Assembly (NCBI GenBank): GCA_943788115.1
Contig: CALSPA010000014.1
Span: 1-64,000, forward strand
Direction: 5' to 3'
DNA: 64,000 bases
Source of the DNA: an uncultured Flavobacteriales bacterium
GTDB lineage: Bacteria > Bacteroidota > Bacteroidia > Flavobacteriales_D > Parvicellaceae
Shown here: positions 30,744 through 50,506 of the stretch, one piece after another
How the letters are laid out: the number at the start of each line of letters is the position of its first letter
Numbering within the stretch: position 1 is the stretch's first letter
Notes under the pieces: generated by a model
The model's database searches: none
What the model was told of the DNA's origin: nothing
What the model saw: the letters and a program-made list of their open reading frames with translations, nothing else
Program-made: the position numbers and the translations under genes

Positions 30744-31703
30744 ATGAACACGAAAACTACCTTTGTTTCACTTGGACTAATTAGAATTATTAATTTCATC
30801 TTCTTGTTTATTCTCTCTGCTGTTGCTAAGGTCTACCCTTCGTTATTTGGTGACCAGTATCCTTCGCCTTATTTTGCCATAACAACTTTTGAGGCGAAAC
30901 AGCTGGTCCCTTTAGGTTTTGATCAGTGCTATGGTGCCTACTTTTCAAGGTTACTGATTTCATTTGAATTTGCTCTAGGGTATTCTCATTCTTCTGCCTT
31001 TTTATTTAAAGCGAATTGTTATACCAGCTACAATTTTGTTGCTCAGTGTTTTTTGTGTTCACCTCTCTCTTTCTGTTTTCGGAATTATGGAAGGTGCTGC
31101 GAATTGTGGTTGCTTTGGTGAGCTCATTCCAATGTCTCCAACTTTGAGGCGCTTATTAAAAACTTATTGTCTATTGGGCTGTTGATTGGTGTTGATTTAA
31201 GCTAATTAAAAAGTGATCAGCCTAAACGCTTTTTTCATGTCTGAGTTCTTATTTATTTATGTTCTCTTGGCGCCTTGTTTTATGTTGCTCCTAATAAATC
31301 GTGTAACATTGATGTTAGCTAGCCCTAAAAGTTGGAAAGAGCATGTGGTGGGTGGGGAGAAAGCTCCTTTGCTTTTTTCGCTCCGGGCTGTGATCATTGT
31401 ATGGCTTCGGCTAGATCACTGGACTCTTTAATGTTGCTAAATCCAAGTTTCCCGAATACGTACATTATTTTCATGGATGAAGAACCCGATAAAATCCCTG
31501 CTTTTTTTGAATTTGCTGGTAGAGAGTTTTCTTACGAAGTCATGGATGTTGCTGAGTTTTGGAATGTTCTTGGTTTTGATAATGACACTCCAGGCGTTTA
31601 TTATTATATCGATGGTATTAAGAAAAGCTATTATCAGGGAATCAACGAAAATAGATTCCAGCCGAACTTATTGTTAAATGATATTAAAAGCGGCAATAAT
31701 TAA
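30744..31703 (+). pseudogene. MauE/DoxX-like membrane protein with thioredoxin-like domain (multiple frameshifts)
   Basis: Reading across several frames gives one protein of about 320 residues. The N-terminal part has hydrophobic helices (ILSAVAKVYPS, ISFEFALG) and the NCGCFGE motif typical of MauE/DoxX-type redox-associated membrane proteins. After another membrane segment (LIYLCSLGALFYVAPNKSC) comes a thioredoxin-like domain with a CDHC active-site motif near 31390, then KIPAFFEFAG and TPGVYYY. At least four indels lie between about 30980 and 31400. Start codon ATG at 30744. The family probably takes part in periplasmic thiol redox, by its two paired-cysteine motifs. Confidence 0.7.
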
Positions 31704-34608: not shown

Positions 34609-37600
34609 ATGAATAAATTTTCAATTATTGTCATATTGGTTTTTTGTAGCTTTTTTAATCTTAATGCTCAAATAATGTCTTTTTCTTCAGAACCAGAAAA
34701 ATACTTAAAAGAAGTTCAATCTTATCTTGGTGTTGTTAATAAAGTTGATGCCAAACAATTTGCTAAAGAATTTGAGCCAATATGGTTAGGTAATAATTTT
34801 TCTGCAGATCAAAGAGCTCAAATATATAGCACATCAAATTTGATGGCTCAAAAAAGATTAAAAGCGTATCCTGATTTTAGAAATTATCTAGATGCTGTGA
34901 AGAATTTCGCTGTTTCTGGAAGAGATGAGCAAGATTTCAATCAATGGCACGAAACCATTAATAAGGTAATGGGTGGAAGAGAAAAGAAACGAATTGCTAA
35001 ATATATTGAAACCTGTTCTAATCTTTTTTCTGACAATACTGTTTTTAAATCTTCCTCTACAACATGGAAGGCTAATTCAAGTAATTATACTTTCAAGTTT
35101 ACAAAAGAACCTGTTATTGAATTTGGAGAGACAAATTTGCGGTGTTATTCTAAAAGGGATAGCTCGGTAATTTATAAAACTTCAGGATTATTTTACCCAC
35201 TTACAAATAAATGGGTGGGAACAGGTGGTGTTGTAACTTGGGAAAGAGCTGGCCTTTCAAAAGATACTGTCTATGCAGAGTTAAGTAAATATTATATTTC
35301 TCTTAAAACAGCTGGCTTTGTCTGTGATTCGACTAAATATCATAGTAGGTATTTTCAGGCTCCTATTCTTGGTAAACTTTCTGAAAAAGTTTTGTCCAAC
35401 CTTGGTGAAAACAAGGTTAAATATCCAAGTTTTGAATCCTATGATAAACGATTAGTTATTAAAAATATTTTTGAAAATGTTGATTACGATGGTGGTTTTA
35501 CAATAAGAGGAAAAAATCTACAAGGTTCTGGAACAATAGATAACCTAGCAAGATTGATTTTTAGATATAAAAACGAAGATTTTTTAGTGGTTGAGTCAAT
35601 TAATTTTACAATCAATGATGATCTTGTTTCTTCAGAAAAATCTAAAATTAAAATTTACATTGATAAAGATTCTATAATTCACCCAGGAACTCAGTTTAAA
35701 TACGTTAACAAAAATGGAAAAGTAACAATAATCAGAGGTGGGTCTGGTATATCAGATTCTCCTTTTTATAATAGCTATCATCAACTAGATATGTACACAG
35801 AGGCAATTTATTGGAATATAGGTGACCCTGTTTTGAATTTCGCTCCTCTATTTGGAAGTACAGATATTAGTGCTCATTTTGATTCATTTGATTTCTTTGA
35901 CAAAAATATTTACGACCAATTAACAGGAATGGGTTTAAATCCTTTAGTTCAAATAAATAATTTTTCTAACCAATACGGAAGCACAACTTTTCCTGTAGCA
36001 GATCTAGCTTCTTTTATGCGAAGCACAAAGTCCGATCTAGAATTTATGCTTTTTAACCTTACTACGAAAGGTTTTGTGGATTTTGATGTTGACAGACAGT
36101 TAGTTACAATAAAAACTAAACTTTATAATTATATCGAATCTAGAAAAGGCGAGAGAGATTTTGATGTTATTGTTATAAATTCTGACAATAAAAAAAATGC
36201 TCAACTCAACCTGCTTTCACTTGACTTAACCATTAATGGAGTGAAAAAAATAGCTTTAAGTAATGCTCAGTTTGTAAGAATATATCCAGATAAGGAAGTT
36301 ATAACTGTAAAGAAAAATAGAGATATGGTTTTTTCTGGTATTATTAACTCAGGAAGAACAGAATATTTTGGTAACGAGTTTTCTTTTAATTACGATGAAT
36401 TTAAAATTAATTTAATTCAATGTGATTCTATGCGTTTAAGAGCCATAAATGAAGAATCTAGTGGCGGTAATCAAATTCGATTATTATCAACTATTGAAAA
36501 CTTGAAGGGTGATATTTTAATTGATTTGCCAACCAATAAATGTGGTCTTGATACTTCTAGTCATGATTATCCGCTTTTAAGTACAACTGAAAAGTCTTAT
36601 GTCTATTATGATAAATCTACAATTCAAGGCGGGTTATACAAAAGGGACAGTTTTCTTTTTATTATTGAACCTTTTAACATGGATAGCTTAGATGATTTTA
36701 CAAATGATGGTATTAATTTCCCAGGTTTATTTAAGTCTGCTGGTATATTTCCTGATTTCGAAGAAGTGTTGACTCTTCAAGAAGATTATTCTTTGGGTTT
36801 CAAAAGAGAAACTCCATCCGATGGATTTAATATTTATGGTGTTATAGCTAATTATAACAATAAAATTAAACTCTCAAACAAAGGGTTGCAGGGTGAAGGA
36901 TCCATTAGTTATTTAACTTCTATCGCAGAATCTGAAGAAATAACATTTTATCCCGATTCAGTTACAGCAATTGCTCATAATTACACCAACCAACCCAATG
37001 AAATTGATCCTGTAGTCCCATTAGTAAGAGGTAAAGACTGTTTTGTTTCTTATGTCCCAAAAAAAGAAGTTCTTTATGCTTCCAGTAATAAGGATGACAT
37101 TGTGTTTTTTGAAAATGAGGATGCTACTTTACATGGTCGTTTAGCTTTAAGGCCTAACGGAATGACAGGAGAAGGGCTAATGTACTTTGGAAAAGGAGAA
37201 ATGCTATCTTATACTTATAAATATCTTCTAAATGCAATTAATGCCGACACTTCCGAATTTAAATTAAATACAATGGAAGAGCAGGTTAAGGAAATGGCAT
37301 TTAAAACCGAAAATGTTAATGCTCATGTCGATTTCACTACAAGAAAAGGTGAGTTTAAATCTAATTCAGGTGAAAGTTTTGTTGAATTTCCAGATAATCA
37401 ATACATCTGTTACATGGACCAATTTAACTGGTACATGGATAATGATGACTTAGAAATGGAATCTAGATCTGCAGGAGACATTAACATAGATACTGATTTA
37501 GACTTATCTGGTTCGAATTTTTTCTCAATTCATCCAGATCAAGATTCTTTGAACTTTAAATCTCCAAAAGCAAGGTTTGATATTAAGAAAAAAAGAATTA

Positions 37601-39039
37601 CTTGTGATAGAGTTCAATTTGTTACCGTTGCAGATGCTCAAGTTTTTCCAGATTCTAACCGTTTGATAATTAAAAAGAGAGCAAAAATTAAAACACTTAA
37701 TAATGCAAAAATTGTTGCTAATTACATTACCAAATACCATGAAATATATGATGCTAAGGTAGATATTAAGGCAAGAAGAGATTATGTTGCCTCAGGAACT
37801 CTTGACTATACTGATGAAAATGATAAGAAACAACCAATTTATTTTTCATACATTCATCCTGATACAAGTTTTACAACTACGGCAAAAGGTTCTATTAAAG
37901 AAGATGTTGAGTTTACGTTAAGTCCGTATTTCGAATATCATGGAGATGTTGAAATGTATGCTTCTGTCAAAAACTTATCGTTTAAAGGGGAAACTAGGAT
38001 TGTTCATTCTTGTGAAAATATTCAAAGAAGTTGGATCAAATTTGATGGTGCTGTAGATCCTAATGAAGTTTATATTCCTATTGATACTGTGTTAGTAGAT
38101 ACTGAAGGAGATGTTATTGGAACTGGAATAATTTTAAATAATACAGATTCTATTTCATTATACACTACTTTTTTGTCAAAGAAATTAAATGCTAAACATT
38201 TAGATATTATTTCTTCATTTGGATTTATCTATTTCAATAAGAAGGAAAATGAATACCAAATCTCAAACAAGGAAAAGCTGGCTGAAAGATCGCTTCCAGG
38301 AAATTTCATTTCTTTAAATATTAATAATTGTAAAATAGAAGGAGCAGGTCAATTTGATTTTGGTAGTGATTTAGGTCAAGTTGTGGTTAAACCAGTTGGT
38401 GAAATAAAGTATAACCCTGCAATGTTTTCAACAGATATTAAATCTTCATTAATGGTTAATTTTCCATTCAGTGAAGATGCGTTTAATAAGTTAGCTAAAG
38501 AGCTTAATGAAAAACCAAATTTAAGAACCATTGATTTAATTAATTCAACCTATGAATATTCTTTAAGAGAATTAGTTGGACTAAAGCAAGCTGATAAAAT
38601 GATTTCCGACCTCACTATTCAAGGAAAGGTAAAGAAATTTCCAGAAAGTTTAGAAACCTCTTTTTACTTTGGAGACATTAGATTTAGATGGGATTTCAAT
38701 AAAAAAGCATACGTCTCATATGGTGATATTGGAATAGCTAATATTAAAAATAAACAAGTAATGAGGTATGTCAAAGGAAAGGTCGTTATTTTTAAACGAG
38801 TAACTGGAGATGAAATTTCCATTTATCTTGAACCAGAAGATGATGAGTACTATTTCTTTAATTATAAAAGAGGCTTAATGCAGGTTTTTACTAGTAATGA
38901 AGAATTTAATACTATCATTTTAGAAACAAAAAAGGATGATACTAAGTTTAAAGGGGGTAAAGAAGTTGAAGATTATCAATTTATGATGGGTTCTAAAACA
39001 TTTGTGACTGCTTTTAGACGATCATTTTTTGAACAATAA
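34609..39039 (+). CDS. giant exported protein of unknown function (1,476 aa)
   Basis: I cannot assign a known family. A signal peptide (MNKFSIIVILVF..., cleaved near NAQ) directs it out of the cytoplasm. After a helical first 150 residues the rest is dominated by alternating beta strands. Several segments look like loosely repeated modules of the type 'G-[EI]-G-x-[LI]-x-[YF]' (for example near 35520, 36890 and 37160), and there are no membrane helices. The YICYMDQFNWYMD block near residue 930 and the YHEIYDAKVDIKARRDY block near residue 1043 are striking enough to serve as family markers. The strand-rich style recalls OstA-like or beta-solenoid envelope proteins, but that is an impression. 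It starts 6 bp after prmA and precedes plsY by 7 bp, so it is co-transcribed with housekeeping genes. Confidence 0.75.
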   Translation: MNKFSIIVILVFCSFFNLNAQIMSFSSEPEKYLKEVQSYLGVVNKVDAKQFAKEFEPIWLGNNFSADQRAQIYSTSNLMAQKRLKAYPDFRNYLDAVKNFAVSGRDEQDFNQWHETINKVMGGREKKRIAKYIETCSNLFSDNTVFKSSSTTWKANSSNYTFKFTKEPVIEFGETNLRCYSKRDSSVIYKTSGLFYPLTNKWVGTGGVVTWERAGLSKDTVYAELSKYYISLKTAGFVCDSTKYHSRYFQAPILGKLSEKVLSNLGENKVKYPSFESYDKRLVIKNIFENVDYDGGFTIRGKNLQGSGTIDNLARLIFRYKNEDFLVVESINFTINDDLVSSEKSKIKIYIDKDSIIHPGTQFKYVNKNGKVTIIRGGSGISDSPFYNSYHQLDMYTEAIYWNIGDPVLNFAPLFGSTDISAHFDSFDFFDKNIYDQLTGMGLNPLVQINNFSNQYGSTTFPVADLASFMRSTKSDLEFMLFNLTTKGFVDFDVDRQLVTIKTKLYNYIESRKGERDFDVIVINSDNKKNAQLNLLSLDLTINGVKKIALSNAQFVRIYPDKEVITVKKNRDMVFSGIINSGRTEYFGNEFSFNYDEFKINLIQCDSMRLRAINEESSGGNQIRLLSTIENLKGDILIDLPTNKCGLDTSSHDYPLLSTTEKSYVYYDKSTIQGGLYKRDSFLFIIEPFNMDSLDDFTNDGINFPGLFKSAGIFPDFEEVLTLQEDYSLGFKRETPSDGFNIYGVIANYNNKIKLSNKGLQGEGSISYLTSIAESEEITFYPDSVTAIAHNYTNQPNEIDPVVPLVRGKDCFVSYVPKKEVLYASSNKDDIVFFENEDATLHGRLALRPNGMTGEGLMYFGKGEMLSYTYKYLLNAINADTSEFKLNTMEEQVKEMAFKTENVNAHVDFTTRKGEFKSNSGESFVEFPDNQYICYMDQFNWYMDNDDLEMESRSAGDINIDTDLDLSGSNFFSIHPDQDSLNFKSPKARFDIKKKRITCDRVQFVTVADAQVFPDSNRLIIKKRAKIKTLNNAKIVANYITKYHEIYDAKVDIKARRDYVASGTLDYTDENDKKQPIYFSYIHPDTSFTTTAKGSIKEDVEFTLSPYFEYHGDVEMYASVKNLSFKGETRIVHSCENIQRSWIKFDGAVDPNEVYIPIDTVLVDTEGDVIGTGIILNNTDSISLYTTFLSKKLNAKHLDIISSFGFIYFNKKENEYQISNKEKLAERSLPGNFISLNINNCKIEGAGQFDFGSDLGQVVVKPVGEIKYNPAMFSTDIKSSLMVNFPFSEDAFNKLAKELNEKPNLRTIDLINSTYEYSLRELVGLKQADKMISDLTIQGKVKKFPESLETSFYFGDIRFRWDFNKKAYVSYGDIGIANIKNKQVMRYVKGKVVIFKRVTGDEISIYLEPEDDEYYFFNYKRGLMQVFTSNEEFNTIILETKKDDTKFKGGKEVEDYQFMMGSKTFVTAFRRSFFEQ

Positions 39040-39046
39040 TTGTTAA

Positions 39047-39703
39047 ATGAAAGAAGTATTTGAATTTAATAACATTATTTCTGTTGTTATCGCTTATTTG
39101 ATTGGATCAGTACCATCAGCAATATGGGTTAGTAAGTGGTTTTTTGGAGTAGATGTTAGAGATTACGGGAGTAAAAATGCTGGTGCAACGAATACATTTA
39201 GAGTTATTGGCAAAAAAGCGGGTTTTCCAGTTTTGTTTTTTGATATTCTTAAAGGTTGGGGGTCGGTGAAAGGATTATCTCTTATCTTCTCATCCTATTT
39301 AGTTGGTTCAGATCAATTTGTAAACCTTGAACTTGCTATTGGTGTAGCAGCAGTTTTTGGACATGTTTTCCCAGTTTACGAAGGTTTCAAAGGTGGTAAG
39401 GGTGTCGCAACTCTTTTAGGTATTATTCTGGCAGTTAGTTTTCCTGCAGCTTCAATCTGTTTTCTAGTCTTTGTTTTAATATTTGTTTTAACCCAATATG
39501 TTTCTTTAGGAGCTATTTGTGCAGCTTTCATATATCCATTCTTAACTATTTATGTTTTTAAGGCAGAAACTCCCTCTCTCATCTTTTTTTCTATTGTTAT
39601 TTCTTCTTTAGTTATCTTAACACATAAAAAGAATATTGAACGGTTATTGAATAAACAAGAGAGTAAAATGCCGTTAAACCTAAAATTCAAAAATAAACCC
39701 TGA
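39047..39703 (+). CDS. plsY: glycerol-3-phosphate acyltransferase PlsY
   Basis: First acylation step of phospholipid synthesis, using acyl-phosphate. The 218-residue polytopic membrane protein carries the three family motifs: SVPSAIWVSK, KNAGATNTFRVIGKKAG and GHVFPVYEGFKGGKGVAT. The length is typical. It is squeezed between two giant envelope-protein genes, 7 bp after the first and 34 bp before the second, in an operon-like run from tpiA onward. Confidence 0.95.
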   Translation: MKEVFEFNNIISVVIAYLIGSVPSAIWVSKWFFGVDVRDYGSKNAGATNTFRVIGKKAGFPVLFFDILKGWGSVKGLSLIFSSYLVGSDQFVNLELAIGVAAVFGHVFPVYEGFKGGKGVATLLGIILAVSFPAASICFLVFVLIFVLTQYVSLGAICAAFIYPFLTIYVFKAETPSLIFFSIVISSLVILTHKKNIERLLNKQESKMPLNLKFKNKP

Positions 39704-39737: not shown

Positions 39738-42700
39738 GTGAAGTTTAAATTCAAATATCAATTATTAATTGGACTTATTTTTATAGTCCTTTTTTCTTAT
39801 GGCCAGTTCCAAACTGAACAAGAAAGAAAAGTGTATGCAAATAATCTATTTGAACAAGGTGAGTTCATTGAAGCTGAACCTCATATGCTTCACTTTTTAA
39901 GTTTAGAGAATACTACTGAATACAGTTACAAGTACGGAGTCTGTGCATTATATACTTATGCTGACAAAAGTAAGGCCATACGTTTTTTAACATATGCCGT
40001 TAAAGATAAAGAGGTCGATGTAGAAGCGTTTTTTTATTTAGGAAAAGCGTATCATCTAAACTATCTTTTTAATGATGCAATTAGAAATTACGAACTTTTT
40101 AAATCTAAATCAACTTCTAAAATTCAAAAAGAATTTTTAATTGAAATGCATCTATCAATGTGTGTTAGCGGTAAGTCATTAATGCAAAATCTTACTGACT
40201 TAGTTGTTGAAGATAAGATTGAATCTAGTTCAGATCGTTTTCAATACAGCTATGATTTCTCTAAAATTGGAGGCAGAATTTTAGTTACTGATGAATTTCA
40301 ATCTAAGTACGATAAAAAAGTGGGGTATAGATCTGTAATTTATTTCCCGCCTCTTAATCAAAATTTAATTTTCTTTTCCAGCTATGGTAAGGACGGTTCT
40401 AATGGATTAGACCTGTATAAAGTATATAGATTACCTGAAGGCGGTTGGTCTGAGCCAGTTCGTTTACCCAATCATATCAATACTCAATATGACGATGCGT
40501 TTCCTTTTTTACACTCCGATGGAAAAACATTTTATTTTTCTTCCATGGGTCATTCTTCCATGGGTGGGTATGATATTTTTAGAACCTTTTATGAAGAAGA
40601 AACTAATTCATTTGGACCGCCATCAAACATGGATTATAAAATCAATACACCAAGTGATGATATAATGTATGTTGTTGATTCTTTAAATCAAAATGCTTTT
40701 TTCTCATCATCAAGAGCATCTAAAGGTGATTTCTTAGATGTTTATAAGGTTAGAGTAGAGGTGTTTCCAATTCAAAATGTAATTATTGCTGGTGAATTTT
40801 TTAATGAAATAGATAATACAGATATTGATGCAAAAATTCAAATAGTTGATTTAATAACAGAAGAAGTAATTGGGATTTTCCATCCTAACGATCAAAGAAA
40901 ATATACAATTATACTTCCTAAAAGTGGGAAATATAAATTTTTGGTTGAGACTCCTAAAAGTGAAAGGATACATGCAGGAATGGTTGAAGTAATGCCTCAA
41001 AAAGAGTTGAAACTATTAAAACAAGAGATTCTATTAGCGAGTAATGATGGTAATGAGCAATTAATTATTAAAAATTTATTTGATCAGACTGTTGAAAATG
41101 AAAGCGAAATTTTGGCTGAAGTAATGAGGGAATTATCAACACCTGAAATTAATTTTGATGAATTTCCAGATAGTCTTTTTATTGAGGATTTATCAATAGA
41201 TGAAGATTTAATTATTACAGACCCTTTAAATAGTAATGAAGATGTTGATTTAGTTTCTATAAGTAATGAAATAGCATTAGAGGCAAGAAATGAAGCTGAT
41301 GAAATTGAAAACAAAATGAATGCTTCATTTTTAGTTGCTCAGAAAAAGAGTGATGACTCCAAAGCAGCTTCAAAGCAAGCGCAAGAAATATTGAAGAATA
41401 TAGATGAGATTGAAAATCCTTTAGAAAGACAACAGCAGGCTGATTTAGCAAATGAATATCATGAGAAATCAAAAGAATTAAACCAACAAGCTGTAACAGC
41501 AATTAACGTTGCTAATTCTTTAAAAACACAACACGATAAAAAGGAAAAAGAGGCTGAGGAGTCTCAGGAAATTGCCAATGCAATATCAAAAGCTATTCAG
41601 GATGATTCGCATGAAGAAGCTCTTGCTCATTTAAGTGAATTGCAAAATAAAATTAATGATATTATAGAGGAAGATAACGAGTTGAATAATTCAATTGATG
41701 AAAAAGAGATTCAAGCAAAATCATTAGAATTGAAAGCTAAAGAACATCTTAAAGTAGGACAAGAATTAAGAGAAGAACAAGAGCTAATTCAAGTTAAGTT
41801 AGCCAATGCGGAAAGAGAGAAAAACACTGCTAAAAAGCAAAAAGATAAAGATGAAATACAGCTTAAAATTAATCAGTTTCAGGAAGAATTGGCGCTAAAC
41901 AATCAAATGGCTGATGACGAATTTTTAAAATATGAACAGTTAATTGATGATTCTAAAAACATAAATGCTGAAGTAGAGATGCTTGCTGAATTGGATGAAA
42001 TTGTTGAAACAAATCCAATTGTTGAAATTTCAGAAGAACAAAAAGAAATTGTTGAGCAGCAAGTACTCTCTGATGATGTTTCTCAAGAGATAGAAGATAA
42101 CGAGAAATTACTTTCTGAAATACCAAATAAAAATACACTTTCTGAAAGTGAGAATCTAGAGACTAATGAAGCTGACATTGTTGAAGATGTTTCTTTATTA
42201 AATCAATCTGAGAATATTCAAAATCAATCTGAACTGAATTCTAATGAAGAAGAAATTGTAATAAATATTAATGATCAGCGTGTTGTTAATGATAACTCTA
42301 GCAATGAGTTAATTAACAAGCAAGAAGTAGCCTATAAAGAAGTTATTGCTGTTTTGGAAAATTCAGAATCAACGAACTATGATTATTCAGACTCTTTTAA
42401 TGAGTCAATCTCTTATAACAGTAAATCTTCAACAGAAAAACTCGAGAACATTGATAATGATCTTGAAATGCTAATGGTAGCAAAGCAGGAGTTGGCTTCT
42501 TTAGAATATGAAAGCCAAAACGAAGTTAAAGAGTCTAAAAAGGTAGAAAACCAAAAAGACATTGATAATAAAAAAGAAATTATTAGTGAAATGGAAACCA
42601 ATTTATCTTCAAGTTTTGAACAAGTAATGGTTGCTGAAAAGCAAAATAATGATTCATTGTTTTCATCTGTTGAAGATGTTTTAACTCCCGAATTGTTAGT

Positions 42701-45700
42701 TGATGAAGATTTTTTAAGTGCTAAATATTACAATGATCAAGCTCAGAAACAATATGTTTTGGCTCAGAATTTAAAAAAGGAAGCTCAAAATCAAAATGAT
42801 AATAATAAAAAAGCTGAACTTCTCAGAGAAGCACATCAATACGAATTGGCAGCAGTTGAAAATCAACAAGATGCACTTAATTTATTAGATGAAATTGAAG
42901 TTCCTGCTCAATCAATTGATTTAGCTCAAGAAAATGAAAATTCAGCTGAAATTGATGAGACACCAATTGATAATCCAACACAGGATGTTTCGGAAGAAAA
43001 TACAGCTAATTTACCTTCAAATGAAACAGATGAGCAAGAGCTAGCTATTGAGAATGAAAGCTCAGCTGAAATGGATAAGACACCAATTGATAATCCAATA
43101 CAGGATGTTTCTGAAGAAAATACAGCTAATTTACCTTCAAATGAAACAGATGAGCAAGAGCTAGCTATTGAGAATGAAAACTCAGCTGAAATGGATAAGA
43201 CACCAATTGATAATCCAATACAGGATGTTTCTGAAGAAAATACAGCTAATTTACCTTCAAATGAAACAGATGAGCAAGAGCTAGCTATTGAGAATGAAAA
43301 CTCAGCTGAAATGGATAAGACACCAATTGATAATCCAATACAGGATGTTTCGGAAGAAAATACAGCTAAATTACCTTCAAATGAAACAGATGAGCAAGAG
43401 CTAGCTATTGAGAATGAAAACTCAGCAGAAATTGATGAGACACCAATTGATAAACCAACACAGGATGTTGTGGAAGAAAATATATCTACTTCAAATTCAA
43501 ATGAAACAGATGAGCAAGGGCTAGCTATTAAGAATGAAAACTCAGCAGAAATTGATGAGACACCAATTGATAAACCAACACAGGATGTTTCTGAAGAAAA
43601 TACAGCTAATTTACCTTCAAATGAAACAGATGAACAAGACCTAGCTATTGAGAATGAAAACTCAGCAGAAATTGATGAGACACCAATTGATAAACCAACA
43701 CAGGATGTTTCTGAAGAAAATACAGCTAATTTACCTTCAAATGAAACAGATGAACAAGACCTAGCTATTGAGAATGAAAACTCAGCAGAAATTGATGAGA
43801 CACCAATTGATAATCCAACACAGGATGTTTCTGAAGAAAATACAGCTAATTCAACTTCAAATGAAACAGATGAGCAAGAGTTAGCTAGTGAGAATGAAAA
43901 TAGAACTGAAGTTACTAATGATGCTACTGTTAAAAGGTCATCACAAGAAAATTTAAATAACAATTCTATAACTGTAGAAGTAGTGAAACAAACTGTTGCA
44001 GGAGAAGAGTTTGAGAGTGATTCAGATCCTGAGGTTTATCAAGTTGCTGCTGTTTTTAACGAAGATTCTCCAATAACTATAGACAATTATTCAAATAGCT
44101 TTTCCACAAATAAATTACAAACTGTTCAGCAGGATGTTAATGAAGTGATTGAGTTGGAAAAAGAAATAAGTGTATTAAATAAAGAATTAGCTGCAACTGA
44201 AGATGAAAAGCAAATAAAAAAAATAGCTAAGAAAATAGAATCACTTAAAGCTGAAAAGATTGAAAATGAGCTTGAGTTGGCTGATGTTTACAAGGAAGTT
44301 AATCAAAGTGAATTAGAAATAGCAAAGGCTAAAGTTGATGTTGTTAAGGAACAATCAATGGCACTTGTTAATAATTCTTATGAGTTTAAACAAGCTAACG
44401 AGTATGAAAAAGCTGGTGACTTTCTTGAAGAAAAAGCTATAGGTTTAAGAAAAGAAGCAGAAAACGAAAATGATATTAATAAGAAAAATGAACTTCTTTT
44501 AAAAGCATCAAATGCTGAGCTTTCTGCCTTAGATAAACTTGAAACAGCAAAGAAATTATATGCTGAAGCATTAGTAGAAGATGTGTCTGTTTCATCTGCT
44601 ATTTCACCAAAGCAACTTAATACAAGTTTCACATCAATCGAAGTTGCTACTAAGGCAAATGATGTTAATGAAAATGCATTAGTAAATGAAAATAGAGCTG
44701 TTGAGTTAAGAGCAGCTGCAGAAAATGCAAAACCAAATGAGAAATCAGCTTTGCTTTATGAAGCTACAAAATTAGAAGAGCTAGCTAGAAGAAGAAAAAG
44801 CACTTGCTAATCAATTATTTAATAAATCAAATAGAATAAAGTTATATGAAGATGCAATAGTTGAACAACAAGATTTAGCTGCAAACTTAAGTGAAGCTGA
44901 TGCTGCTGAGGTTGTTACCACAAAAGAGTATGAACAATATTACAATCAGGAGCTGGAAATTAATGATTTATCTACTCAATTAAGAACCATAGAAGAAGAG
45001 TCTAACGCCTATGATGCCTTATTTAAACAGCAAACTACAAAAGCAAATTCTTACTTTAATAAAGCTCTTTCAGAACAAGATCCTGTAAAGAGACAGGATT
45101 ATATTTCTAAAGCTAAGGAGCTGAAAGAGAATGCTTTAATTAATAAATCAAAAGCTGATGAAATCCAAGAAGATGTGGTTGTTTTGGCACAAGAGGTTAA
45201 AGAGAAAAAAGTTGCTCAAGCTCAAGTGATTTCATCTTTGGATAAAGAAACCGCAAACGATATTAAGGCTGTAGTTATCTCAGATTATAATAAAACGCCT
45301 AAATCGGAAATTGTAACAATAAATGATTTGGTTTCAACAAATTATAAAGCACCTTCTGAAGTTAAAAGCGATATTTTTGTTGTTAGTGAGCAGACGACCT
45401 ATTCTGTCAGCAATCCAATTCCTGTTAACCCGCCTCATCCAGAAGGTTTAATTTTTAAGGTTCAAGTTGGAGCATTTAGAAAACCAATTCCTCAAGATTT
45501 ATTTAAAGGTTTTGCTCCAATTAGCGCAGAAAAAGTCCGAGATGATATTACTAGATACAGAGTGGGGTATTTTAAGAATGAAAATACTGCTACAAGTTCT
45601 AGAAATACAATTAGAGGTCTAGGATATAGAGATGCTTTTGTTGTTGCTATTTATAATGGTGAGAGAATACCAATTTCTAACGCTCGAAATTTAATTGTAA

Positions 45701-46791
45701 ATAATCCGCAACTAGCAAATAACACTAGCGCAGAAATTGAAGATGAAATTTCAATTCCAAATAATAATGAATTTCAAACTTCAAACAATTCATCTAATTC
45801 AAGTTCATCTGAAAGAAACCCAACTGCTGAGACTACAGATGATAGAACATTAGACAATAATGAATTAGCTAATGAAACACCAGAGTACGTAGCTAATTTA
45901 AATGAAAACGCAGCTGAAGTAAATCCCCTTGAGAATATCAAAGGGTTGTTTTATTCAATTCAAATAGGGGCTTTTTCAAAGCCACTTTCTAAGAATGATG
46001 CATTTAATGTTTCGCCATTGGTAATACAAAATGTAAATAACTTATATAAGTATTCAACAGGTATTTTCAATACCATTGAAGATGCAAAGTCACGTAAAAT
46101 AGAAATGAATGAGATTGGTTTGTCAGATGCTTTTGTAGTTGCCTTTTTTGATGGAGAAAGAGTTTCCATTGCAAGGTCTTTAGAATTAGCAGCTAATGTT
46201 AAGCCTGTTGTTAATAAAACTGAAGATAATGGGGTAACTGTTTTACCAGTAAACCAGGGAAAAGAATATTATGTAAATCTTGGAATTTTTAATGATTCAG
46301 TTCCTAAAGCGATAAGTAATGCGCTATTGTCTATGCGAGAGTTTAGAATTAAACCTGTTTCTATCGGTGAGTACAGGCAATATCTTAGTGGTGTGTTTAA
46401 AACATTAGAAAAAGCAAATCTTGCGACTCAAACTTTTAAAGAAATTGGAATCAAAGATGCTGAGGTTATAGAGTTTATTGACGGTAAGGTTGCCAAAGGT
46501 CAACCAAGAGTATGTAAAGGTTTGTATTATACTATACATTTAGGTACTTACTATGAAAAAGTTCCAAGAAAGCTTCGAGATGTATTTATGAGATTAGATT
46601 ATTTAGATATTGAAACGAAAAAATCTGATCAACAAGAAGATTATTACGCGTCAAAAGAAGATTTATATTTAGATGCTGAGGAAGTTTTAAAAGATTGTTT
46701 AGAAAATGGAGTTGTTGTTTCTAAAATTGTAGCTTTTAAAGATGGTGTAGAAATAGATATTGATGTGGCTAAACAATTTACAAGAGAATAA
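39738..46791 (+). CDS. giant PorE-like protein with acidic repeats and four SPOR-like modules (one frameshift)
   Basis: Two frames (39738-44810, then about 44800-46791) join to about 2,350 residues. Order: signal peptide; TPR-like helices (residues 30-150); a PD40 beta-propeller with blade motifs such as FYFSSMGHSSMGGYDIF (about 170-340); a carboxypeptidase-regulatory-like beta domain (350-430); long Glu/Lys-rich coiled coils; eight 40-residue acidic repeats; more coiled coil; and four SPOR-like modules starting near 45444, 45940, 46258 and 46518 (VQVGAF, IQIGAF, VNLGIF, IHLGTY). TPR-propeller-CRD is the layout of the T9SS protein PorE, which ends in OmpA-like instead. SPOR binds denuded peptidoglycan. 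The frameshift lies in an AGAAGAAGAAAAA stretch near 44790-44800. Likely periplasmic and cell-wall attached. Confidence 0.78.
42921..43904 (+). repeat. eight 120-bp in-frame tandem repeats plus partial ninth
   Basis: The unit is exactly 120 bp (40 codons) and starts at 42921, 43041, 43161, 43281, 43401, 43521, 43641 and 43761, followed by a decaying partial copy from 43881. The encoded unit begins LAIENENSAE and ends SNETDEQE. It is strongly acidic and contains a central TPID segment. Copies 2-4 share MDKTPIDNPIQ, copies 6-7 share IDETPIDKPTQ, and copy 5 is the most diverged (VVEENISTSNS). Near-identity at DNA level points to recent unequal recombination. Confidence 0.97.
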
Positions 46792-46822: not shown

Positions 46823-47098
46823 ATGTCAGTACAAGAAAAACAACAAGGAATTATAGATGTTTTAACTTTAGAAATTGATCAGAAAGATCTAGTACTCTAT
46901 AATGATGACCATAATACATTTGATCATGTTATTTCTTGTTTGCAAAAATACTGTGATCATTCTTCCATACAAGCTGAACAGTGCTCTTGGATCGTTCATA
47001 ACAATGGTAAATGTGGAGTTAAAAAAGGTGTTTTTAATAAATTAAAGCCAATTTGTGAAGCACTAGTAGACGCAGGTTTATCTGCAGTAATTGAATAA
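46823..47098 (+). CDS. clpS: ClpS adaptor for the ClpAP/ClpCP protease
   Basis: The 91-residue adaptor delivers N-degron substrates to the Clp ATPase. It shows the core LYNDDHNTFDHVI motif, a central C.KYCDHSSIQAEQ helix and a final ALVDAGLSAVIE helix. The N-terminal extension is short. ClpS often lies near prmA in Flavobacteriales as I recall; here the two are separated by the giant genes and plsY. Confidence 0.92.
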   Translation: MSVQEKQQGIIDVLTLEIDQKDLVLYNDDHNTFDHVISCLQKYCDHSSIQAEQCSWIVHNNGKCGVKKGVFNKLKPICEALVDAGLSAVIE

Positions 47099-47893: not shown

Positions 47894-47920
47894 TTAATAT
47901 TGAGTTTAGATTTATTCCCA

Positions 47921-50506
47921 ATGAAAAGAGTGTTAGTTGTCATATTTGTATTTTTTAGTTCCCTGATTTTTTCTCAAGATTTAAGTTATAAACATTTTTC
48001 TACTCACAATGGGTTACCTAGTAATCAGGTTTATAACATCTATCAAGATAATAATGGATTTGTTTGGTTTGCTACAGATAGAGGGATCGCAAAGTATGAT
48101 GGTGATAAATTTACTTTATATGATCAGAGTGATGGATTGACTTCTAGTACAATTTTCAGATTTTTCCCACAAAAAAATGGAGATGTTTGGTGTTCAACAT
48201 TTCAAAATAAATGGTTTTATTTTAATCCAGATAACATCAAATTTACACCATATGCTTTTAATGATACTATAGTTAAGTATTCTAAAGGAGGATTAAATGA
48301 AAACTTTTATTTATCTAGTAATGGTACAATTTACATTGGTTATCAAAATGCAAATGGTTTTTTAGCCATTTCTAAAAATGGAGAATTGTTACATTCCTTA
48401 GAAGAAAATAACGATATGTATATACAAGATAGTAGTAATTGCATTGTAGAATACGATGATAAGGCTTTCTTTAATTATATTTCTTTAAAATCTTTAGATG
48501 AAATTTCTGAAAGGTTCAGAGTTTTAAAACATGTTGAATTACATCGTTTTCCTTCTTCAAACTATCATAAAGAATTTAAAATTGGTGATTGTGTTGTTTT
48601 TTCAAATGGTAATGATTTAGTTATAAATAATTCAAAAGAATCTACTATTTCTAAAACATATGAAAATAGAATTATTGGTTTAGGAAAATATGATGATAAG
48701 CACATCTGGGTTGGTTTTGTAAAAGGTGGTTTAAAGATTATTTCTTTAAATGGAGAATTAGTTAATCATTATTTGGATAATAAATCTGTTACATTTTGTA
48801 GTCAAGACTTTCATGGAGGCCTTTGGATATCAACATTGTCAAATGGTGTTTTTTATTCTAGAAATAGTCGTATCAAAAAATATACATTTACTGATGATGA
48901 TATTTATTTTGTTGGAAATGGAAATGGAGATAAGGTTATTGTAGGCACAATTGTGGGTGATAATTATGAAATTAATAATGAATCAATTAAATTATTTTCG
49001 TCTGTCAAAATAAAATCACCTGACATAATTAATTACAATAAATTTCACTCTTCATATATTTCAGCTTATCAAGGATTTAATGATAGATATTCATTTAATA
49101 ATAAGGATTTTACAGATAATTCTAATGTGATTTCATTAGTTAATAATTTGATTACTATTTCTAATGATATTAATAAGCCTTTTTTAGCTGGTGGAACTGT
49201 TAAATTTATGTATTGGAATAAATCCATAAATTCCATTTCAAGTGTTTATATAAATAATAGAATTAGATCAGTTTCATGGTGTGATAAAGCAATATTTATT
49301 GGAACATTAAATGGTCTTTTTAAATATGACACCATTAATTTTGAAATAAAACCATTTAATAATCCATTGCTAAAAAATAGAATAGAAGTTGTTGAAACCC
49401 TTAATAATAAAGCTTATATCGGAACAATGGGTGAAGGCTTGGTGGTTTTAGAAAATGATTCTATCATTCAAATTTCTAAAAAAGATGGTCTTTCTAGTAA
49501 TTTAGTAAATAAACTTTTTGTTGAGAATGATTCTATAATTTGGCTGGCAACAAATAACGGTCTTAATAGAGTGTTAATTTCAAATCCTCAAATTTCAGTT
49601 AAAACCTTTAATGAAGATGATGGGTTAGTTGATAGTTATATAAATGATGTATTCATTAAGGGGGAAACGGTTTGGGTTGCTACTAGATCTGGTTTGTGTT
49701 CCATGTCTAATAATGATTTTGTAAAAGATTCAACTGTGAATTTATTCTTAAAATGGGCTTTTGTTGAAAGTGAAAATACTTTTTTAAGTGATTCGTTACT
49801 AATGAATTTAGATTATAAAAAAAACAACTTAAATTTTCATTTTAATGCTGCTTATTTTAGTGCCGATAATGGAATTGATTTTAGGTATAAATTAGTAGGG
49901 CAAGAAGATAGTTGGAATTATACATCCTTAAGGGAAATTAAATATTTCTCTCTTGTTGCTGGTAGCTATGAAATTAAAGTTCAAGCAAGTATTAATGGAT
50001 CTGATTGGTCTGTCAATGAAATAACAAAATCATTTGTAATCTACCCCCCATTTTATCAAACCAATTGGTTTTATTTACTTATTGCTATTTCTATATCTAG
50101 TCTTATTTATTTGTTCTTTAAAATTAGAGTTCTTACATATAACAGAGATATAGTTAGAGAGCTTTTGCGATTGCTATTAAAAAAAATTACTCCTAAATCT
50201 TCCCATTTCACTGTTAAAGATCAAGGTTTAGATGTTAAAGTTAATTCTCATGATGTTTTGTATGTAAAAGCATCTGGTAATTATTTAGAACTTTATACTT
50301 TGAACAAAAGATATTTGATTAGATGTAAACTTGGAGATTTTTTAACAATGGTACCTGATAAGATTGAATATGTTAAAATAAATAGATCTCACATAGTTAG
50401 AAAAGATAAAATTCAGGGTAAAAGTTCTAAATCTATTCAAATAGCAGGTGAGGAATTTGTTGTAAGTAAAACATATCAAAAAGAAGTTAATGAAATAGTT
50501 CTCTAG
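47921..50506 (+). CDS. propeller/Y_Y_Y membrane sensor with LytTR DNA-binding domain
   Basis: An 861-residue one-component regulator. A signal peptide is followed by two-component-regulator propeller repeats with the LPSNQVYNIYQDNNGFVWFAT pattern (given in part). A Y_Y_Y domain follows (FSADNGIDFRYKLVG, then SWNYTSL), then one membrane helix (WFYLLIAISISSLIYLFF) and a cytoplasmic LytTR domain at the C-terminus, including VLYVKASGNYLELYT and INRSHIVRKDKI. Histidine-kinase motifs are absent, so it should bind DNA directly from the membrane. The ATG at 47921 is chosen because it gives a proper signal peptide. Target genes unknown. Confidence 0.88.
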   Translation: MKRVLVVIFVFFSSLIFSQDLSYKHFSTHNGLPSNQVYNIYQDNNGFVWFATDRGIAKYDGDKFTLYDQSDGLTSSTIFRFFPQKNGDVWCSTFQNKWFYFNPDNIKFTPYAFNDTIVKYSKGGLNENFYLSSNGTIYIGYQNANGFLAISKNGELLHSLEENNDMYIQDSSNCIVEYDDKAFFNYISLKSLDEISERFRVLKHVELHRFPSSNYHKEFKIGDCVVFSNGNDLVINNSKESTISKTYENRIIGLGKYDDKHIWVGFVKGGLKIISLNGELVNHYLDNKSVTFCSQDFHGGLWISTLSNGVFYSRNSRIKKYTFTDDDIYFVGNGNGDKVIVGTIVGDNYEINNESIKLFSSVKIKSPDIINYNKFHSSYISAYQGFNDRYSFNNKDFTDNSNVISLVNNLITISNDINKPFLAGGTVKFMYWNKSINSISSVYINNRIRSVSWCDKAIFIGTLNGLFKYDTINFEIKPFNNPLLKNRIEVVETLNNKAYIGTMGEGLVVLENDSIIQISKKDGLSSNLVNKLFVENDSIIWLATNNGLNRVLISNPQISVKTFNEDDGLVDSYINDVFIKGETVWVATRSGLCSMSNNDFVKDSTVNLFLKWAFVESENTFLSDSLLMNLDYKKNNLNFHFNAAYFSADNGIDFRYKLVGQEDSWNYTSLREIKYFSLVAGSYEIKVQASINGSDWSVNEITKSFVIYPPFYQTNWFYLLIAISISSLIYLFFKIRVLTYNRDIVRELLRLLLKKITPKSSHFTVKDQGLDVKVNSHDVLYVKASGNYLELYTLNKRYLIRCKLGDFLTMVPDKIEYVKINRSHIVRKDKIQGKSSKSIQIAGEEFVVSKTYQKEVNEIVL

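Follow-up and report, generated by a model that had tools for sequence, protein, structure and literature searches.

Which process in the cell envelope would make use of a protein with a head laid out like that of the T9SS protein PorE at one end and an array of SPOR modules at the other? This question is raised by a gene of an uncultured Flavobacteriales bacterium (Parvicellaceae) in the window analyzed here, a stretch of 64,000 nucleotides from contig CALSPA010000014.1. The architecture is real and conserved, and the searched libraries and papers contain no description of it. Its domains are known and their combination is new; the protein probably links an envelope machine with the septum of dividing cells. 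To our knowledge, division and outer-membrane constriction have been little studied in Bacteroidota. Among curated families, none was found that describes a TPR-PD40-CRD-tether-SPOR protein (CRD, carboxypeptidase-regulatory-like domain), and the family was likewise undescribed in the openly licensed papers retrieved for SPOR with PorE, PD40, Flavobacterium or TPR plus propeller. This agrees with the initial annotation, in which no described protein with this exact order was known.

The gene runs from a GTG start at 39738 to 46791 on the forward strand (Table 1), and these coordinates were found to be correct. Its two halves are an ORF at 39738-44810 (frame 0; 1,690 aa) and an ORF at 45175-46791 (frame +1; 538 aa), the second frame being open back to about 44788. 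When 29 full-length relatives were aligned by tblastn, the frame changed at 44788-44798, and in the best-matching relatives no gap accompanied the change. This shows that one indel breaks one gene, as had been proposed from the sequence. In the relative L065, for instance, residues 416-1425 stop at 44795 and residues 1423-2072 begin at 44788. Translated on either side of the indel, the halves comprise 1,683 and 667 residues, about 2,350 in sum. Relatives from the same family and order read through, with both halves within one unbroken ORF of 1,638-2,943 aa, and the source assembly consists of 28 contigs with an estimated completeness of 89.5%; the indel is therefore likely to have arisen by misassembly or by recent mutation. 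Within the genus, the contig of the matching gene runs out after 528 residues in one genome (G001), and another (G002) gave no ortholog-strength match. A programmed frameshift was considered and rejected in favor of an indel, since the second half is read in the +1 frame whereas an A-rich stretch would favor -1 slippage, and since no relative uses a shift. Does the host organism then hold a decayed or misassembled copy from which no full protein is made? The frameshift and the state of the assembly would suit such a copy, but both halves are still open and conserved with no further break, the relatives are intact, and a single indel located among short repeats (CTAGCTAG, GAAGAAG) fits an assembly error. 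We thus regard a dead gene as very improbable.

Table 1. Features of the gene and its flanks, in window coordinates.
Feature	Position	Strand	Basis or remark
Neighbor: 1,476-aa exported protein	34609..39039	+	At most 5 genes upstream in 76/118 loci
Neighbor: plsY (glycerol-3-phosphate acyltransferase)	39047..39703	+	Pfam 5e-54; directly upstream in 59/118 loci
Type I (Sec) signal peptide MKFKFKYQLLIGLIFIVLFSYG|Q, GTG start, no lipobox	39738..39803	+	Sequence
TPR domain	39804..40193	+	AlphaFold model residues 1-130; VIA match to TPR protein
PD40 (WD40-like) beta-propeller region	40203..40754	+	Pfam; NCBIfam partial matches; beta-rich in model
CRD-like beta sandwich	40770..41075	+	Model residues 323-424; match in relative L148
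Long charged, Pro/Gly-poor tether, ~1,400 residues	41142..45426	+	Composition
Tandem repeat within tether, 8.1 copies of a 120-bp (40-aa) unit	42933..43900	+	TRF, 94% matches
Frameshift, single indel breaking the frame	44788..44798	+	Frame change in tblastn with relatives
SPOR module 1, canonical, VQVGAF...RYRVGYF	45445..45669	+	Pfam SPOR 23.2 bits; model; own profile 94 bits
SPOR module 2, canonical, IQIGAF...KYSTGIF	45943..46164	+	Pfam SPOR 20.6 bits; model; own profile 81 bits
SPOR-fold module 3, degenerate, Gln to Asn	46258..46488	+	VIA; own profile 63 bits
SPOR-fold module 4, degenerate, Gln to His	46519..46755	+	VIA; own profile 63 bits
Neighbor: clpS	46823..47098	+	Pfam 1e-15; directly downstream in 63/118 loci

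The protein is predicted to be exported by Sec and to be soluble in the periplasm. No lipobox was found at the cleavage site in the window protein or its relatives; a lipobox-like pattern occurs in two of 118 relatives, both times well ahead of that site. The N-terminal order of TPR, PD40 and CRD-like domains, first read from the sequence, was upheld by modeling. The AlphaFold model of the head, built with 27 sequences, reached a mean pLDDT of 84.7 and a pTM of 0.78, and the propeller and CRD regions are beta-rich in it. Its TPR part was matched by VIA to a TPR protein with a Z of 15.8 (2.5 A over 118 residues), while the propeller and CRD parts were barely covered in this fold search. For the propeller, Pfam identified PD40 at residues 247-282 (E 4e-6), and partial NCBIfam matches to the PorE and CHU_0125 models span residues 207-370, the propeller only, far below the cut-offs. 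The CRD is assigned by the model and a partial profile match only, the latter extending into the CRD columns of PorE in one relative (L148). Sequence searches of the PDB with the unaligned N- or C-terminus returned only weak TPR matches and chance ones.

Is the protein a PorE with its anchor swapped, as was initially suggested? PorE has been described as a lipid anchor followed by TPR, a five-bladed propeller, CRD and OmpA_C (PMC7192894). The SPOR protein shares with PorE of Porphyromonas gingivalis the N-terminal order of TPR, PD40 propeller and CRD, the periplasmic location and a wall-binding C-terminus. It differs from PorE in its SPOR modules in place of OmpA_C, its long tether and its missing lipid anchor. 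Pfam found no OmpA match in either half of the gene. The NCBIfam model T9SS_PorE matched at E 1e-19 with 70.3 bits against a cut-off of 600, a value below which the full-length PorE-like proteins of the examined genomes also fall (up to 533 bits). A PorE-like protein of 696 aa with an OmpA region is encoded elsewhere in the host genome (G000, contig 5; E 3e-148, profile positions 7-647 of 648). In a propeller tree of 52 rows, the 33 SPOR-family rows split from the 19 PorE/PD40 rows at 100/99. Membership in PorE was rejected on OmpA, lipobox and tree, and with a separate PorE-like protein present the idea of a PorE with a swapped anchor is not supported. A head of TPR plus PD40 is also shared with the CHU_0125 family of OmpA-like outer-membrane integrity proteins (NCBIfam NF053607), which differs in its OmpA_C anchor, its length of 656 aa and its lack of SPOR. 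The propeller region matched CHU_0125_OmpA at E 6e-24 (84.4 bits against a cut-off of 620), with no OmpA domain.

The protein might still act as an accessory scaffold of T9SS or gliding, its head binding T9SS parts as proposed for PorE and its SPOR modules positioning the machine at the septum. The PorE-like layout of the head and the propeller match to T9SS_PorE are consistent with such a role, as is the presence of SprA in 113 of the 114 genomes that carry the gene (G114 alone is without it). The TPR-PD40-CRD head by itself is no evidence for T9SS function, and a T9SS link drawn from co-occurrence has little power because nearly all sampled Bacteroidia genomes (239/247) carry SprA. Against an accessory role stand the 126 of these 239 genomes that were without the gene at a cut-off of E 1e-60, the separate full-length PorE-like protein, the distinct propeller clade, the missing lipobox, and the finding that no T9SS gene is among the conserved neighbors at 118 loci. 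Those 126 genomes speak against a general need of T9SS for the gene and leave room for an accessory role; we consider that role improbable, and the case for the T9SS function first put forward for this locus is weak.

The head is followed by a tether rich in Glu, Asn, Ala, Ser and Lys, in which Pro plus Gly account for 1-2% outside the repeat. In 111 relatives its length ranges from 667 to 2,235 residues (median 1,295). About 1,500 residues of coiled coil and repeats had been described here. A long tether with tandem copies is indeed present, but the coiled coil is unproven because the window copy shows weak heptad periodicity; one relative does have it (L064, z 4.4 at spacing seven). A helical-hairpin repeat motif general to the tether was rejected, the simple motif not being general. 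On the opposite strand, a 345-aa ORF at 42926-43963 is a mere mirror of the 120-bp tandem repeat.

The C-terminus was divided into four modules with our own iterated profile. Its model (454 residues) contains four units with a mean pLDDT of 80.7 and a pTM of 0.38, a low value that is expected if SPOR modules are not fixed to each other. All four were modeled as beta-alpha-beta-beta-alpha-beta or near, module 2 without the first helix. VIA placed SPOR domains on top for this model, with FtsN and DamX also among the matches. Modules 3 and 4 are linked to solved SPOR domains by direct structural alignment, modules 1-2 by a sequence profile. Module 3 was aligned with the SPOR domains of CwlC (Z 8.9, 2.8 A over 77 residues) and RlpA (Z 7.9, 2.3 A over 71 residues), and module 4 with that of DedD (Z 5.5, 3.9 A over 80 residues). 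The profile of modules 1-2 found the CwlC SPOR domain in the PDB at E 8.6e-5. In Foldseek, the entire C-terminus ranked ferredoxin-like ACT domains first because the query holds several domains. Against Pfam SPOR (PF05036, cut-off 21 bits), module 1 scored above and module 2 just below the cut-off, and no match was obtained for modules 3-4 of the window. In relatives, third modules do exceed the cut-off, and at E 0.01 the family is matched by 20 of 26 sequences of modules 1-2.

Can these modules bind septal glycan? In RlpA, Q270 and R309 of the SPOR domain contact denuded glycan, and the counterparts in FtsN are Q251 and R285 (PMC6895207). The strand-1 Gln is kept in 99% of 116 first modules and 100% of 114 second modules, and Arg directly precedes the conserved third-strand Tyr in 95% and 84%, respectively. 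These residues correspond to Q270 and R309 of RlpA, the Arg being placed by spacing. In third modules the Gln drops to 44%. Judged from these residues, modules 1-2 look competent for glycan binding, since Gln and Arg are kept, and modules 3-4 of the window look degenerate, since the Gln is replaced. The four SPOR modules of the initial annotation were thus recovered as predicted folds, with the glycan-binding residues intact in two.

An N-terminal search with a cut-off of E 1e-60, beneath which divergent copies may sit uncounted, detected the gene in 114 of 247 sampled Bacteroidia genomes and 55 of 142 genera. Within the same order, it was found in 149 of 199 genomes and 46 of 56 genera, in most families and with one strong match per genome. 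The usual form is a single ORF of 1,500-3,000 aa, often lying between plsY and clpS. The two-ended layout is kept in more than 100 complete relatives, and nearly every complete gene has 2-5 SPOR modules at its end. Three sequences sampled from other lineages (L192, L193, L199) retain one weak SPOR module. Some shorter relatives, about 950-1,000 aa long, have a head of this type and lack SPOR (L201, 6129-9056; L200, 1-2856); the head region is repeated in the former, and the latter is cut by the contig end in the upstream search record. Named carriers are Crocinitomix catalasitica ATCC 23190, Fluviicola chungangensis and Salibacter halophilus. Four further records (L098, L097, L126, L160) bear titles such as Glaciecola amylolytica, Chryseobacterium gleum and Chitinophaga pinensis; their genes group with this Bacteroidia family near Crocinitomicaceae and the names look doubtful. 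A once-per-genome protein of about 2,000 residues that joins a known type of septal-glycan grip to a known type of scaffold head offers a specific gene for study in cultured species.

In FtsN, DamX, DedD, RlpA and CwlC, SPOR domains are few and are borne by an inner-membrane anchor, a lipoprotein or an enzyme. The protein described here resembles them in its C-terminal SPOR fold and, in modules 1-2, in the conserved Gln and basic residue, but it carries 2-5 modules on a soluble giant scaffold. SPOR proteins known so far act in division or morphogenesis (PMC6895207). On balance, we infer a soluble periplasmic scaffold at the septum, with SPOR modules 1-2 on denuded glycan and the head on envelope partners during constriction. 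Modules 1-2 would hold denuded glycan strands produced by septal amidases, and an Amidase_3 gene is encoded in the host genome (E 4e-51). The long flexible tether would span the periplasm or slacken the link across it, and the TPR/PD40/CRD head would grip an outer-membrane or periplasmic partner. This partner would thereby be brought to the site of constriction while cells divide or daughter cells separate. The kept two-ended layout, the single copy per genome and the housekeeping genes around the locus count in favor of this reading. Counting against a septal scaffold are modules 3-4 without the Gln and the absence of the gene from about half of the sampled Bacteroidia; because of the latter, division does not generally require the gene. 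Nor do the conserved neighbors at the 118 loci include a divisome gene.

Alternatively, the protein could be a general, non-septal spacer between wall and envelope or an outer-membrane stability protein, with a role like that of CHU_0125 or Pal-like proteins and with SPOR gripping the wall in a generic way. The head of CHU_0125 is of the same type, deletion of CHU_0125 affects the envelope and leaves division unaffected as seen by SEM (PMC5891637), and the wide range of tether lengths would suit a spacer. The division and morphogenesis roles of known SPOR proteins and the denuded-glycan residues kept in modules 1-2 argue otherwise, and we view a general spacer as possible but doubtful. Returning to the septal scaffold, a more specific role as a dedicated outer-membrane constriction factor of Bacteroidota can be suggested tentatively, although we think it rather unlikely: the paired SPOR modules would read denuded septal glycan and the propeller head would couple it to outer-membrane complexes, doing part of the job of Tol-Pal in Proteobacteria. 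The exported 1,476-aa neighbor could be a partner of such a constriction factor.

This neighbor is present in 204 of 247 Bacteroidia and gave no match in Pfam, NCBIfam or the PDB. Beta-rich repeats are visible in it by eye, and it is a candidate deserving its own study. Elsewhere in the window, two short ORFs at 30744-31703 occupy the place of what is in relatives a single gene of about 310-330 aa (312 aa in L093), so a second frameshift in the assembly is likely. Just downstream of the SPOR gene, 47900-50506 encodes a Reg_prop/Y_Y_Y propeller protein with a LytTR DNA-binding domain.
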